A DNA stretch of 64,000 nucleotides from Deltaproteobacteria bacterium (lineage in GTDB: Bacteria > Desulfobacterota > GWC2-55-46): contig JACOUO010000017.1 of the NCBI GenBank assembly GCA_016177845.1, forward strand, positions 62,001 through 126,000. The letters are read 5' to 3'. This document shows, piece by piece, positions 16,955 through 23,174 of the stretch; position 1 is the stretch's first letter; the number at the start of each line of letters is the position of its first letter. Made by a program: the position numbers and the translations under genes. Below the pieces are notes generated by a model. That model was not told the DNA's origin. It did not search any database and saw only the letters and a list, made by a program, of their open reading frames with translations.

Positions 16955-16980
16955 TAGTCTCTTTTCAGGTGTTCATCTAA

Positions 16981-17010
16981 GCCCGCCGGAGTATCTCCGG
17001 CGGGCTTTTT
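16981..17010 (+). terminator. Strong rho-independent terminator after the lipoprotein gene
   Basis: GCCCGCCGGAG at 16981-16991 pairs perfectly with 16995-17005 around a TAT loop and is followed by five T. Confidence 0.95.
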
Positions 17011-17118: not shown

Positions 17119-17147
17119 TTGACAGGAGGGGTTTGTTTTAATAGAAT
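17119..17147 (+). promoter_or_regulatory. Sigma-70-type promoter of the heme chemoreceptor operon
   Basis: TTGACA at 17119-17124 and TAGAAT at 17142-17147 are spaced by 17 bp. Transcription would start near 17154, leaving a leader of about 177 nt. The rest of 17011-17330 shows no gene. Confidence 0.65.
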
Positions 17148-17330: not shown

Positions 17331-19523
17331 ATGTTACGCCAAGGCTTGAAATCAAAAATCCTTAACCTGACCATAGGGCTGACTCTGCTTGGTTTCGGGG
17401 TACTCGTATTCCTGGTCATCAAGGAAGAGGAAAAGAGCCTTTTGAGGGAGAGGATGAAGGCAAGCGAGCTCATGGCGCAGCCTATCCTCCATACGATTTA
17501 CAAGGACATGCTTGATGAAAGGGCGGACATGCCCCGGTTTCTCATTGACGGTCTTAAGACCATCAAAGGCGTTGAGAGGGTCCAGCTCATCAGGTCAAAC
17601 GGAGTTGAAGAGGCTTTCCAGGATTATAAGACGCTCAACGATGTCAAGGCTGAGTTCGGAGAGATAAAGCCTGAGTGGATAGTTGACCATTCAAACAAGC
17701 TCAACAATGTTGCCCAGGGCATCCACAATCCTGATTTTAAAAAAGCGCTTCAAAGCTTCAATTCAGGTAAGAGGGAAGCCGTATATTATATTGAAAAAGA
17801 AGGGGAGAAGAGCTTTTTCACATATCTTATCCCCATAGTGTCAAAGCCCAAATGCAGCGGCTGCCATGCGCATGAAGAGGCTGCCAGGGGCGCCCTGATG
17901 ATAACTACATCGCTTGATGAGATGTACGGCGTCCTTTCAGGCTCAAGGAATAAGTGGATACTTTACGGAGTGATGACAGCCGCAGGCATGACAATGCTTC
18001 TGGGGCTTCTTGTAAGCGGTGTAATAACGCGCCCCATCGACAGGACCGTCGATATGCTAAAGGCGATAGCCGAGGGCAAGGGAGACCTTACAAAGCGCCT
18101 TGACATAGCATCCGATGACGAGATAGGCATGCTCGGCAAATGGTTCAATAAATTTGTCGAAGGCATGCAGCATATGGTCAAGGAGATATTCGGAATATCC
18201 CGTGAAGTATCTTCCGCGTCAAAGGAGATCGAATCGTCTTCAAGGGAGATAATCGAAGCGGTACAGAAACAGCTGGAAGCGGCTGAGGACACATCAGCCT
18301 CGATAAAAGAGATGGACGCCTCCATAAAGACCGTTGCCGAGGAGGCAGACGCCCTCAACAGCTCATCGATAGAGGTGTCGGACTCTGTTCAGACCATGTC
18401 CGGGTCTGTTGACGAGGTAAAGGTCAACATCGAAAAACTGTTCTACTCGGCCTCTTCTACTACTTCATCCATAAATGAGATGGCGATTTCCATCAATCAG
18501 GTCGCTTCCCATGTCGATGAACTGTTCAAAAAGACCGAAGATGTCGTATCCTCCATCATCGATATCGGCTCAAAGGTAAAAGAGGTGGAGAACTATTCAA
18601 GGGCGCAGGCAGAACTTGCCGAGAAGGTAAGGGAAGACGCCGAAGACCTCGGCATGGCCTCTGTCGTAAAGACAAGGGAAGGCATCGAGAAGGTAAGCTC
18701 TGAGGTCGCCTCAACCGCCCTTGTCATAAATCGCCTCGGCGAAAGGTCAAAGGAGATAGGAAAGATACTTACCGTCATCAATGATATTGCCGATACGACG
18801 CATCTGCTGGCCCTTAACGCGACGATACTTGCGGCGCAGGCAGGAGAGCATGGAAAAGGCTTTGCGGTCGTGGCACGGCAGGTCAAGGACCTTGCAACTA
18901 AAACGACATCCTCTACAAAGGAAATATCAGAACTTATAAAGCAGGTGCAGAGCGAAGTGGCAATAGCGGTAGATTCCATGCAGAGAAGCTCAGAAAAAGT
19001 CGAGGACGGAGTTAGGCTTTCAAGGGACGCGCAGGAAGCTCTGATGAAGATACTTGATTCCACAATGAGCTCGTTTGAGATGGCCAAGATGATAGAGAAG
19101 GCAACTATCGAGCAGACAAAGGGAACAGGTCAGATAACCAATGTCGCGCAGGTCATAAGCCACATGGTCGGAGATATCAAAAACGCCGCAAACGAGCAGT
19201 CAATTGCCGCGAAAGAGATACTTAAGGACACTGTTCAGATGAAGGAATTCATGGAGAGGGTCAAGCTTTCCACAAACGAGCAGTCAAGGGAGAGCAAGCA
19301 TGTCTCAGAGGCCATACTTAAGGTCGTGGATAAGATAAGCAGGGTGGCTCAGGCAACATCGGAACAGATGAAGTTCTCAAAGAGGATAGTATCTGCAGTA
19401 GAAACGGTCAAACAGGCGGCTGAAGACAACGCCGCGCTTGCCGCAAGGCTTGAGAGGACCGTAAAAGAGATGAACAAGCAGGCAGATACGCTTAGAAATA
19501 CAGTCGGAAGCTTCAAGGCGTAA
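17331..19523 (+). CDS. Methyl-accepting chemotaxis protein with a periplasmic heme-c site
   Basis: A 730-residue chemoreceptor. It has a first membrane span (about residues 10-30), a periplasmic sensor (31-205) that ends in a CSGCH motif at 175-179 followed by HEEAARGAL, a second span (about 206-230), a HAMP domain, and a long methyl-accepting signalling helix pair whose tip reads TTHLLALNATILAAQAGEHGKGFAVVA. The sensor resembles the DUF3365/Tll0287 heme-binding PAS-like family, so it should carry covalently bound heme c and sense redox, oxygen or NO; the ligand is inferred. I start at the ATG at 17331: the longer ORF opens with a TTG at 17247 and adds 28 residues with no ribosome site. It is followed after 23 bp by two more c-type heme proteins. 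Confidence 0.9.
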   Translation: MLRQGLKSKILNLTIGLTLLGFGVLVFLVIKEEEKSLLRERMKASELMAQPILHTIYKDMLDERADMPRFLIDGLKTIKGVERVQLIRSNGVEEAFQDYKTLNDVKAEFGEIKPEWIVDHSNKLNNVAQGIHNPDFKKALQSFNSGKREAVYYIEKEGEKSFFTYLIPIVSKPKCSGCHAHEEAARGALMITTSLDEMYGVLSGSRNKWILYGVMTAAGMTMLLGLLVSGVITRPIDRTVDMLKAIAEGKGDLTKRLDIASDDEIGMLGKWFNKFVEGMQHMVKEIFGISREVSSASKEIESSSREIIEAVQKQLEAAEDTSASIKEMDASIKTVAEEADALNSSSIEVSDSVQTMSGSVDEVKVNIEKLFYSASSTTSSINEMAISINQVASHVDELFKKTEDVVSSIIDIGSKVKEVENYSRAQAELAEKVREDAEDLGMASVVKTREGIEKVSSEVASTALVINRLGERSKEIGKILTVINDIADTTHLLALNATILAAQAGEHGKGFAVVARQVKDLATKTTSSTKEISELIKQVQSEVAIAVDSMQRSSEKVEDGVRLSRDAQEALMKILDSTMSSFEMAKMIEKATIEQTKGTGQITNVAQVISHMVGDIKNAANEQSIAAKEILKDTVQMKEFMERVKLSTNEQSRESKHVSEAILKVVDKISRVAQATSEQMKFSKRIVSAVETVKQAAEDNAALAARLERTVKEMNKQADTLRNTVGSFKA

Positions 19524-19546
19524 GAATCCGCAATTTGGAGGTCCCT

Positions 19547-20560
19547 ATGGTTGGGTTTACTTCAGTTTTAATGCTGGTATTGGCTTTCACGCTCGCTTTG
19601 CCGCTTCAAGGTTACGCGAAAGACATAAATTGGTCAAAGATAGATTCTGCCAGGGTAGTTCTTTTTTACCCGGGTGTGACATCGTGGGAGTTCCTGACAA
19701 GCGATGACCACAGGCTTGGCGGCAGGGAGATAAAACAGGGTAAAAAGGACTGCAGGCATTGCCACCTGAGCAAGGAAGGCGAGCTTGATCTCAAGGCAGA
19801 TGAAATAGCCGCGGGAAGCGTCAAGATGAAGAGGTCTCATAACCCGTTTGAGCCTGAGCCGCTGGCCGGGAAAAAAGGCGTGGCGCAGGCTAAATTTCAG
19901 GCTGCTTATGACGACGAGTTCCTGTATCTAAGGGTTGAGTGGGACTCAAAAGGCGGCGGATGGAACAGGAAAAGCCCTAATAACAGCAGCGTTCCTGACA
20001 GGGTCTCGCTGCAGATAAACAAGACTGAATCTACATTTAAGAAATACGGCTGTTTCATTACCTGCCATAACGACCTCAACACTATGCCTTTAAGCCCTCA
20101 GAAGAGGGATGTATCAGCGCACCCTTATTACAAGTCGCTGGACAGGTCGGATGTAAGGCTTTACGCTAATTACGCCAAGGCCTCATGGGATGAGAAGAGG
20201 AATGACAAAGACCTTGAAAAGAAGCTTAAGGAAGGCGGGCGCATAGATTTAAGGGCAGTGGAGTTTGAAGGCGGCTCGGCAAAGGCTTTGGACGGCTGGA
20301 TATTCGATGACAGGATATGGGAAAATAAATCAGCGGACGCAACCGGCCAATGGGCGAGCGGAAAATATTCCGCCGTGTTCAAGGCCAGACTTAAATCAAA
20401 AGACGCTTTCGACATACAGGTCAATGAAGGCGATGTAATATCCGTAGGCATCGCCATCCATGAGGAAAATACCGCAAAGAGGAAACATTATGTCTCATTC
20501 CCTTACGCGATAGGGCTTGGGACAAACGGCGATATAAAGGCTTCCAGGATTTCCAATTGA
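19547..20560 (+). CDS. Periplasmic c-type cytochrome, ethylbenzene-dehydrogenase heme-domain type
   Basis: A 337-residue exported protein: signal peptide at residues 1-24 (cleavage near GYA-KD), CRHCH at 69-73 as a heme-c site, then a domain resembling the heme-binding gamma subunit of ethylbenzene dehydrogenase and related enzymes (EB_dh). Inside this domain GCFITCHND gives a CX3CH spacing rather than CX2CH. The start at 19547 is set by GGAGG five bases upstream; an earlier TTG at 19535 would put that site inside the gene. It lies in an apparent operon between the heme chemoreceptor and the heme beta-barrel. The likely role is periplasmic electron carriage; no catalytic partner is encoded beside it. 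Confidence 0.75.
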   Translation: MVGFTSVLMLVLAFTLALPLQGYAKDINWSKIDSARVVLFYPGVTSWEFLTSDDHRLGGREIKQGKKDCRHCHLSKEGELDLKADEIAAGSVKMKRSHNPFEPEPLAGKKGVAQAKFQAAYDDEFLYLRVEWDSKGGGWNRKSPNNSSVPDRVSLQINKTESTFKKYGCFITCHNDLNTMPLSPQKRDVSAHPYYKSLDRSDVRLYANYAKASWDEKRNDKDLEKKLKEGGRIDLRAVEFEGGSAKALDGWIFDDRIWENKSADATGQWASGKYSAVFKARLKSKDAFDIQVNEGDVISVGIAIHEENTAKRKHYVSFPYAIGLGTNGDIKASRISN

Positions 20561-20598
20561 GACCTTACAAGACCATCTGAAATGGAGCCTTGCCTGAA

Positions 20599-21771
20599 AT
20601 GGGATTCATGTCTGCTTCCTCTTTATGGCGTAAGTCACTGATAAAGTTTTGTTTTTTATTTTTCCTCTGTATCTTTTCCGTGCCTGTAGACGCGCTGGCT
20701 TTTCCTTTCTTTTCGCGCCAGGTCGGAAGGGACTGCACGTATTGCCATACCCTTTTCCCAAAGCTCAATGAGACAGGTAGGACATTCCGGGGCAACGGCT
20801 ACAGGTTTGAGGGTGAAGGCGAATGGAAGGAAGTAAAGGACTGGACAATACTGCCTGCCGCCGTTGAGGTCGAGGTGGAAGGCATCTACAACAGGTTTAA
20901 GTCCTCAGGTGTTCGCTCTGAATCTTCAGATATGAAGATAGAAGAAGTCAATCTTATATCAGGCGGTGCGATAGGTAAGACCGGAAAGGTCTCTGCGCTT
21001 GCCTCGATAATATTCAGCCAGACTGATACAGGGGCCGACACAAGGATAGGCAGGGCTTTCGTGCAGGTCAATGACCTTGACGGGTCTGCGGGTAAAGGGC
21101 TTATCAATCTAAGGGCAGGCCAATGGGATATCGGGCTGCCGTTCTTAAATCCCGTGGGCGTTGTTATTACAAATTCCTATCTTGCTGAAACCGCCATGAA
21201 CATGCTTACCCTTGAGCAGAGGGCAATCGAGGTCAACGGGTCATTCATTGCCGATGAAGGCTCTATGTGGCCCACGCACAGGTACTCGGCAGGCATTGCA
21301 AGGAGCAATGTAAACAGCGACGATAAGCTCAGGGACTATTACGCAACATATTCCGCGACCATAAACGAGGACTACAGCATTGGCGCGATATACAGGGGAG
21401 GGCGGGAGAAGATTGGGGCGCGGGATACCTCCTATAATAAATACGGAGTTGCAGGCGAGGCTGAGGCAGGGCCGTTTATAATAACAGCCGCCTACTTTAA
21501 ATCTGACAGGTCCGGGGCAAATAATCAGTCCGATTACCTCATAGAGGCGCTCTATAAGGCGTTGCCAAAACTGAGCTTTGCTGCCAGGTATGAGCTCCTT
21601 AAGGAAAAGGACAAAAAAGGTGCAAAGTCACAGAGTTTTATGGCAAGATATAATATATTAAGCGATGTTTTTGCGCAGCTTGAGCTAAGGGGCCTCTCAG
21701 ACGATGATCATATAACAGGCACAAATGAAGACGAGCGCAAGGCAAGGCTTTTACTTGTAGCTGTTTTTTAG
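20599..21771 (+). CDS. Outer membrane beta-barrel protein with an N-terminal c-type heme
   Basis: A 390-residue protein: signal peptide to about residue 34 (VDALA), then a short plug with DCTYCH, a CXXCH heme site at residues 46-50 followed by LFPKLNETGRTFRGNGY, then repeated amphipathic beta-strands ending in a C-terminal Phe, as outer membrane barrels do. Such single-chain heme-barrels occur in Nitrospirota and Deltaproteobacteria next to cytochromes; they may pass electrons across the outer membrane, though one heme alone cannot span it. The start is chosen at the ATG at 20599, 11 nt after GGAG; a TTG at 20590 and an ATG at 20608 are alternatives. It follows the cytochrome by 38 bp. Confidence 0.72.
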   Translation: MGFMSASSLWRKSLIKFCFLFFLCIFSVPVDALAFPFFSRQVGRDCTYCHTLFPKLNETGRTFRGNGYRFEGEGEWKEVKDWTILPAAVEVEVEGIYNRFKSSGVRSESSDMKIEEVNLISGGAIGKTGKVSALASIIFSQTDTGADTRIGRAFVQVNDLDGSAGKGLINLRAGQWDIGLPFLNPVGVVITNSYLAETAMNMLTLEQRAIEVNGSFIADEGSMWPTHRYSAGIARSNVNSDDKLRDYYATYSATINEDYSIGAIYRGGREKIGARDTSYNKYGVAGEAEAGPFIITAAYFKSDRSGANNQSDYLIEALYKALPKLSFAARYELLKEKDKKGAKSQSFMARYNILSDVFAQLELRGLSDDDHITGTNEDERKARLLLVAVF

Positions 21772-21865
21772 GGCAAAAGCTGCTTCCTGTACTCAGGCAT
21801 GGCGTGCTTCGTGGATTCTCATCAGTAACCCTGAGTTGCCGATGATATACTGATAACGACAATAT

Positions 21866-22453
21866 ATGGGCATAAGAGAAGACATAGAGATACTGGATGC
21901 AAAGATTGCAAGGCTTAAGGTGGAATACGAACAGTATTTCATGAGGGTGCTTAAGCGCGAACCTTTGCAGTTAAGGGAAGAGATCGACAGGCTCGTAATG
22001 CAGTACAGCAACCAGACCCTCACGAACACCTCACAGAAATTCAAATACAACTCTATCATTGCCAAATATAATTCATATAAGCAATACTGGACCAGGGTCT
22101 TAAGGTCTATCGATGAAGGCACTTATGTCCGCAAGGCCGAGGGCGGCACTGAGAATGCCTCAGCAAAAGAAATCCGGCAGACACAGCCAAAGATAGCCGA
22201 GATGCCGGCGAGGGCAAATAACGGCAGCAGTGACGAGCTTCAGGAGGTGTATAAAAAATATATTGAGGCAAGGAAGGAGTGCCATGAACCCACTGAGGGC
22301 ATTTCTTTCGAAACCCTCGCCAAGACCATCAATGAGACGAAAAAGAAAGTAGAGAGCCTTTATAAGACCACTGATGTCGAATTAAAGGTATTTATCAAGG
22401 ACGGCAAGGCCAAGCTTGCCATCACCCCAAAGAAAACGACTAAATCCGCTTAA
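21866..22453 (+). CDS. Conserved coiled-coil protein of unknown function
   Basis: A 195-residue cytosolic protein without signal peptide or membrane span. Residues 1-85 form a charged helical region with the block NQTLTNTSQKFKYNS followed by NSYKQYWTRVLRSIDEGTY, which resembles the C-terminal domain of Myxococcus MXAN_5187-like proteins (recalled from memory, not searched). Residues 90-125 are a low-complexity linker, and 125-195 form a second domain with NETKKKVESLYK and a Lys-rich end. It follows the heme module by 94 bp in the same direction. I cannot assign a function. Confidence 0.7.
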   Translation: MGIREDIEILDAKIARLKVEYEQYFMRVLKREPLQLREEIDRLVMQYSNQTLTNTSQKFKYNSIIAKYNSYKQYWTRVLRSIDEGTYVRKAEGGTENASAKEIRQTQPKIAEMPARANNGSSDELQEVYKKYIEARKECHEPTEGISFETLAKTINETKKKVESLYKTTDVELKVFIKDGKAKLAITPKKTTKSA

Positions 22454-22735: not shown

Positions 22736-22976
22736 ACATAACTAGGCAACCGGTCGGTTTAAGTTAATAGTATTAGTCCGCTGCCTTGATTAGCGCTGAG
22801 GATAATATGGCAAGGGGTCATGTTTACTCAGACAGGAGGAATCCCTCTGCAGATAAGCACGGTCTTTCGGGGAAAGATATTTTCTCCTGCAATGTTACCT
22901 TAGGAAAATGAATAGTGCTATTCTGGTTCGGAAAAAAGCAGTCAAACCAAAAAACAACTTTAAGGAGGAGTTACCA

Positions 22977-23174
22977 ATGAAAGCACTTTATACTGCATGT
23001 GCCGCCGTAGTATTATCAGCATTTCTTTCAGTCTCAGTCGCTTCAGCCCAGTCACATCAGCCGCCCCAGCACCCGACTCCAAAGCCTACTCACCAGGTTC
23101 CTGAGCCTGCCACAATCCTTCTTGTAGGCGCAGCACTTTCAGCCCTTGGCATCGCAAAGAGGGTAAAGAAATAA
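22977..23174 (+). CDS. Very small PEP-CTERM sorting-signal protein
   Basis: A 65-residue protein. A signal peptide ends near ASA-QS (residue 24), a 16-residue His/Pro/Gln-rich segment follows (25-40), then a canonical PEP-CTERM tail: VPEPAT at 41-46, a hydrophobic stretch to 60, and KRVKK. Exosortase would cleave at the PEP motif, leaving a mature peptide of about 17 residues if signal peptidase also cuts. The start at 22977 is set by AAGGAGGAG six bases upstream; the longer ORF from 22908 adds a non-secretory head. Exosortase itself is not in the window. Regulation is by the sigma-54 promoter at 22719 and transcription ends at 23191-23224. Confidence 0.85.
   Translation: MKALYTACAAVVLSAFLSVSVASAQSHQPPQHPTPKPTHQVPEPATILLVGAALSALGIAKRVKK

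Follow-up and report, generated by a model that had tools for sequence, protein, structure and literature searches.

Within a 64,000-nucleotide stretch of contig JACOUO010000017.1 (positions 62,001 to 126,000) from a Deltaproteobacteria bacterium (assembly GCA_016177845.1), hereafter called the window and numbered from its first letter, three co-directional open reading frames on the + strand (17331-21771) encode a methyl-accepting chemotaxis protein (MCP), an EB_dh-fold cytochrome and a porin-like barrel. As the original prediction, made from the letters alone, had described, the three genes carry heme motifs and lie within tens of bases of each other, with gaps of ~23 bp between the receptor and EB_dh genes and 30-48 bp between the EB_dh and barrel genes. 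CXXCH is invariant in the aligned homologues of each family, so the motifs are not chance occurrences. Upstream, an intrinsic terminator-like hairpin with a 13 bp stem (16979..17007, +) ends a lipoprotein gene and is followed by a sigma-70-like promoter, TTGACA-17-TAGAAT (17119..17147, +; a consensus match only, 11/12), while no terminator-like site was seen on the + strand from 17331 to 22453. Given these short gaps, the upstream terminator- and promoter-like sites and the uninterrupted interior, the three genes likely form a single operon. The host genome comprises 3.0 Mb, and its closest named relatives are metagenome-assembled genomes labelled Deltaproteobacteria.

The receptor (730 aa; 17331..19523, +) consists of a transmembrane helix, a periplasmic heme-c sCache domain, a second transmembrane helix, a HAMP domain and a signalling hairpin with very long arms (~32 heptads each). 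Its CSGCH motif (17853..17867, +) lies in the domain flanked by hydrophobic segments at residues ~10-30 and ~209-230, and the Pfam scores for MCPsignal (130 bits) and HAMP (44 bits) both exceed their cut-offs, so the proposed receptor with a periplasmic CSGCH is borne out. CXXCH was kept in 18 of 18 aligned sensor domains. Against PF21563 (Mcp40H-20_sensor; cut-off 27) the sensor part reached 30.2 bits and the full-length receptor 27.3 bits; the match to PF11845 (21.4 bits) stayed under its cut-off of 24.1. A profile of the 18 sensor homologues retrieved the Geobacter heme-sensor structures 3b47 (E 2.8e-5) and 3b42 (E 1.5e-3), and GSU0582 and GSU0935 are the closest solved structures to this domain. 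Judged by homology, heme binding by the receptor is well supported. The sensor domains of GSU0582 and GSU0935 hold a covalent c-heme and bind nitric oxide (NO) and carbon monoxide (CO) (PMC3460858). A preprint groups both proteins with Tll0287 in one sCache_heme family, in which a signalling-fused member binds NO tightly and does not bind O2, and a stand-alone member appears redox-like (PMC12889525). Redox as the signal, which the original prediction had suggested, is at most a possibility, given that the characterised relatives bind NO and CO (PMC3460858, PMC12889525). Paralogues of the heme sensor at 45-50% identity, found at other loci (in the same genome, G283 and G090), belong to histidine kinases or a GGDEF/EAL protein and stand in settings without conduits. 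The same sensor domain is joined to a histidine kinase or GGDEF/EAL output at L130:9481-11841, L132:4588-7137 and L133:1380-3371, and the histidine kinase version occurs near gyrA/gpsA in several genomes.

The second gene (19547..20560, +) encodes an EB_dh-fold periplasmic c-type cytochrome with a signal peptide. Its frame can also start at TTG 19535, but ATG 19547, with GGAGG upstream, is the better start. Here, too, the earlier assignment as an EB_dh-type cytochrome holds, with a Pfam EB_dh score of 76 bits (cut-off 33) and a CRHCH motif in an N-terminal extension (19751..19765, +; CXXCH invariant in 21/21). That assignment had overlooked a second heme-like motif, GCFITCH, of which CFITCH (CX3CH; 20051..20068, +) is a putative second heme site. 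CXXCH, CX3CH, M184 and H318 are each invariant in all 21 linked EB_dh proteins; both motifs are kept in most of the distant members, and GCFI[TSA]CH recurs in distant EB_dh proteins of Methanoperedens, Chloroflexota, Methylomirabilota and others. We infer that the cytochrome carries two hemes and that CX3CH, discussed for homologues of ImcH and CymA as a heme motif of atypical form (PMC6295460), is possibly a covalent heme site within the EB_dh fold. The AlphaFold2 (AF2) model has a mean predicted local distance difference test score (pLDDT) of 72 and is of low confidence around CX3CH (pLDDT <50 at 175-181). Its closest folds, far above all others, are EbDH gamma (Z 15.5) and Kuenenia NXR-C (Z 14.4), and a partial alignment places H318 near the Lys position of the Met/Lys heme-b ligand pair of the gamma subunits.

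The third gene (20590..21771, +; ATG at 20599 or 20608 also possible) encodes a Cyc2-like fused cytochrome-porin of up to 393 aa. Its N-terminal segment bears a CTYCH heme motif (20734..20748, +), with PKL four residues further on, and is followed by a predicted 16-stranded beta-barrel (20857..21765, +), consistent with the barrel with CTYCH proposed originally. In the AF2 model (16 strands, predicted template modelling score 0.65, mean pLDDT 63) the heme segment is unmodelled, and the best fold matches include 16-strand porins; the Pfam Porin_4 score lies just under its cut-off, and CXXCH is kept in 14 of 14 barrels. When the barrel's profile was compared with that of 11 Cyc2-type porins, drawn from this and other genomes and mostly carrying an exact or nearly exact Cyc2 motif, the match had a probability of 99.8% (E 1.5e-27) over 335 columns spanning both heme segment and barrel. 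Near full-length matches extend to two genomes, Ca. Manganitrophus GAC4 and Nitrospirota OFTM308, whose matching proteins bear AMPAFARKY...CSSCH, and Manganitrophaceae have been reported to possess Cyc2 (PMC9040806). The published signature preceding CXXCH, AXPXFAR[QK][TY] (PMC8406198), is present only in part: the window has AFPFFSRQV (S for A, V for T/Y), the G242/L111 barrel has AVPAFARRV, and the window's barrel family keeps PXFXR. In further features the protein agrees with Cyc2, as CTYCHTLFPKL places PXL four residues after CXXCH and the length is at least 365 aa. By its sequence, then, the barrel is Cyc2-like, a divergent relative for which we make no claim of Fe(II) oxidation. Elsewhere in the same genome (G000:C23:118051-119352; L002, L059) lies the gene for another Cyc2-type porin, whose motif is exact (AIPAFARQTGMACNSCH); a gene for a ~310-aa putative lipoprotein follows it, and this pair recurs in relatives (L060, L063 and L066). 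Plasmid records yielded only weak matches to the barrel.

Conservation of gene order in relatives had been set beforehand as a test. In every one of the 30 genomes that allowed it (28 from the window's class, two from Nitrospirota), the gene immediately upstream of EB_dh is the receptor, and the lack of co-occurrence named beforehand as a refutation was not seen. Close EB_dh genes were present in 30 of the 63 class genomes searched; the upstream side was read in 28 of them, a count that omits G327 and G347 (in G347 the contig stops on the receptor side), and showed the receptor in 28/28. EB_dh orthologues (E < 1e-90) occurred in 5 of 297 sampled genomes of the phylum, each time with the receptor adjoining (5/5). 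In a species-genome collection, the receptor was found directly upstream in 20 of 20 close EB_dh loci and in 0 of 13 more distant ones. Many of the named metagenome-assembled genomes are the same as numbered ones, and the two sets are not additive.

Downstream of this pair, the third position varied among the 28 genomes: it held a Cyc2-like gene in 19 (plus G347), MtrAB in one and neither in five, all of one genus, with a contig end in the remaining three. The ~20 genomes with a Cyc2-like third gene span several families and at least four chromosomal settings, namely trp/atp in the window's family and, by direct reading of the neighbouring sequences, secA-like (G302), gyrA/gpsA-like (G333) and recN/nadK-like (G347) surroundings. 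Linkage in such altered settings and across phyla rules out chance neighbours. At L110:8753-10057, on the same contig as G321:C169, the Cyc2-like frame is broken by a pseudogenization or an assembly error, with receptor and EB_dh gene intact.

Three loci, those of G090, OFTM308 and Ca. Manganitrophus GAC4, have a different conduit behind the receptor and EB_dh gene(s): a decaheme cytochrome of the DmsE family (TIGR03508) with a porin of the MtrB/PioB family (TIGR03509), each above its NCBIfam cut-off in all three. Because the third position can thus be filled by either a Cyc2-like porin or MtrAB, it is the conduit function rather than one particular gene that is conserved. In GAC4, the MtrA- and MtrB-like parts share one open frame of 1048 aa (L115:9047-12193), and the receptor gene (L115:6203-7971) is split across two frames by a frameshift or an assembly error. 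In the EB_dh tree, the linked proteins form one clade (100/100) separate from EB_dh proteins without the receptor, and the MtrAB-linked proteins fall outside the Cyc2-linked group. The simplest reading of these sequences is that an older MtrAB partnership was exchanged for a Cyc2-like porin in the Deltaproteobacteria-labelled clade, with loss in one genus. An exclusive clade of linked receptors was rejected (approximately unbiased test, p 0.014), as the unlinked G124 receptor nests inside it; a clade including G124 was not rejected (p 0.32), and only on that count does the receptor tree agree with the EB_dh tree. Since the linked OFTM308 receptor belongs to a different signalling class, with the canonical hairpin tip and shorter arms, it is the heme sensor and not one output type that travels with the conduit. 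No MtrB-type porin lies in the window, and none was found in the genome by a search that had no positive control and is uninformative.

The three genes are followed by one for an MXAN_5187 C-terminal-domain protein (21866..22453, +), which holds the same place in most relatives of the window's family and adjoins the EB_dh gene in relatives without the barrel; it is a possible fourth member of the module. Further downstream, 22908-23174 encodes a small protein whose C-terminus resembles a PEP-CTERM sorting signal (VPEPATILLVGAALSALGIAKRVKK). The genome as a whole contains four CheA genes, one of them near the flagellins, as well as two flagellins, ~11 MCPs and four heme-copper-oxidase-type loci. 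A second heme-c receptor, similar in tip and length, is located at approx. G000:C18:746118-748307 (L205:6118-8307, - strand); it carries CVDCH, scores 73 bits as Tll0287-like (over the cut-off) and lies downstream of a COX2, COX1, SCO1 and cytochrome b/FlpD fusion cluster. As this receptor adjoins a cytochrome oxidase cluster, both long-armed heme receptors of the genome stand beside respiratory modules.

We propose that the three genes probably constitute a sense-and-conduct module whose receptor and cytochrome serve the outer-membrane electron conduit at hand, whatever its kind; this organization suggests that the sensor informs the cell where electron exchange with its surroundings can occur. 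The barrel, Cyc2-like here and MtrAB in distant relatives, would move electrons through the outer membrane, and the EB_dh cytochrome would act as the periplasmic partner that hands them on to the inner respiratory chain or takes them from it. The periplasmic heme of the receptor could report the state of this pathway, either through a change of its own redox state, brought about by the cytochrome or the periplasm, or through binding of a small ligand. The receptor would then signal to a CheA via HAMP and hairpin, and the cell would travel to zones in which the conduit can operate, or settle there. Replacement of the third gene by a different conduit in distant relatives speaks for a tie between sensing and electron transfer across the outer membrane, and to this extent the original idea, that the receptor steers the cell toward an acceptor or redox zone also handled by cytochrome and barrel, is supported in part. 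Its acceptor target is less well placed: by analogy with Cyc2 as an Fe(II) oxidase, with Manganitrophus and with the oxidases of the genome, inward electron flow (uptake) appears somewhat more likely, and the target may be an electron donor rather than an acceptor. MtrAB-type conduits operate in both directions. What the sequences establish is the genes, their homologies and the conserved linkage with exchange of the conduit; the flow of electrons from one part to another, its direction, the quantity sensed and a tactic response are inferred. A more specific version, in which electron exchange with its dedicated cytochrome lets the receptor sense directly how oxidised or reduced the conduit is, making this a portable electron-taxis module on two unrelated conduits in different phyla, is at present less likely than not.

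Several observations weigh against the proposed module. One genus retains receptor and cytochrome without a barrel, and the gene order in the window's family could be partly inherited together with its trp/atp surroundings. Moreover, the hairpin tip of the receptor, ILAAQAGEHGKGFAVVARQVK, differs from the canonical tip of most other receptors in the genome, and characterised signalling sCache_heme domains act as NO binders (PMC12889525). NO sensing is the strongest rival for the stimulus: the heme would bind NO (or CO) released by the cell or its neighbours and drive taxis, with cytochrome and barrel representing the respiration that NO would poison. The NO and CO binding of GSU0582 and GSU0935 (PMC3460858) and the tight, O2-excluding NO binding of the signalling-fused family member (PMC12889525) speak for this explanation, which we nevertheless regard as rather unlikely, as no gene recognised as NO-producing or NO-detoxifying was present in the linked loci and the conserved neighbours of the receptor are electron-transfer machinery, including two unrelated conduits. 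For the output, the strongest rival is chemosensory control of attachment, pili or cyclic-di-GMP in place of swimming, comparable to electrode colonisation by Esn in Geobacter (PMC5585712). The atypical tip, the ~32-heptad arms and the four CheA clusters fit this possibility. Variant tips resembling ILAAQAGEHGKGFAVVARQVK occur in other long-armed receptors; the canonical tip is common among MCPs without strictly defining them. The flagellins with their nearby CheA and the canonical tip and shorter arms of the linked OFTM308 receptor point the other way, and attachment control is a less likely alternative. For swimming, as assumed in the original prediction, the flagellins and four CheA genes speak in favour and the atypical signalling tip against.

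The remaining explanations deny the three genes a common task. EB_dh could be a molybdenum-enzyme gamma subunit left as an orphan beside an ordinary porin, the three genes having separate jobs, as the family is named after such subunits and the distant EB_dh genes of G334 and G341 lie, on direct reading of the sequences, beside seeming molybdopterin oxidoreductase genes. However, no gene for a molybdenum catalytic subunit or other molybdenum-enzyme component was found in the linked loci read, and the EB_dh protein is obligately paired with both the receptor and a conduit that bears heme, which renders this explanation improbable. Mere shared ancestry of an uninformative neighbourhood would account for the many members of the window's family in which the same trp and atp genes flank the block, but not for the block's retention in the three other settings described above, nor for receptor and EB_dh gene being kept together in Nitrospirota; largely refuted by these changed settings, it is very improbable.

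The individual parts are of known kinds. Like GSU0582 and GSU0935 of Geobacter and DcrA of Desulfovibrio, the receptor combines a periplasmic domain, predicted to hold one covalent c-heme and set between two transmembrane helices, with HAMP and an MCP hairpin, but it has longer arms and an unusual tip and is linked to a cytochrome and an outer-membrane conduit, for which we found no report in those proteins. The barrel shares with Cyc2 a signal peptide, a single CXXCH with its following PXL, a 16-strand porin, a length of >365 aa and near full-length homology, whereas its family signature PXFXRXXGRDCXXCHXXFPXLNXTGR replaces AXPXFAR[QK][TY]. The cytochrome has the EB_dh fold and Pfam domain of EbDH gamma and Kuenenia NXR-C (heme b); it differs in its additional N-terminal CXXCH, the invariant CX3CH, the conserved His near the Lys ligand position and an operon without a molybdenum-enzyme partner. 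MtrAB/MtoAB/PioAB conduits occupy the third position in the Nitrospirota and G090 loci and are absent from the window. Chemosensory proteins have been genetically tied to extracellular electron transfer in Shewanella congregation (MtrBC/OmcA, CymA and the MCP SO_2240), where mutants link chemotaxis to this process, and in Geobacter EsnABCD (PMC5789149, PMC5585712), but in those accounts the receptor does not figure as a heme-c protein with its gene beside those of the conduit. We found no published account of receptor, EB_dh cytochrome and conduit together in the open-licence literature; what is new is how the parts are combined, together with the exchange of conduits, and the unit is apparently undescribed.

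Little is understood of how microbes locate extracellular electron donors and acceptors (dissolved Fe(II), Mn(II), minerals or electrodes, for example), and the links known between sensing and electron transfer, in Shewanella and Geobacter, are indirect and come from genetics. A chemoreceptor with heme that is encoded and inherited together with a conduit is a direct candidate for such a link, also in Ca. Manganitrophus, which oxidises Mn(II), and the module gives a context to uncharacterised Cyc2-like porins and CX3CH EB_dh cytochromes.

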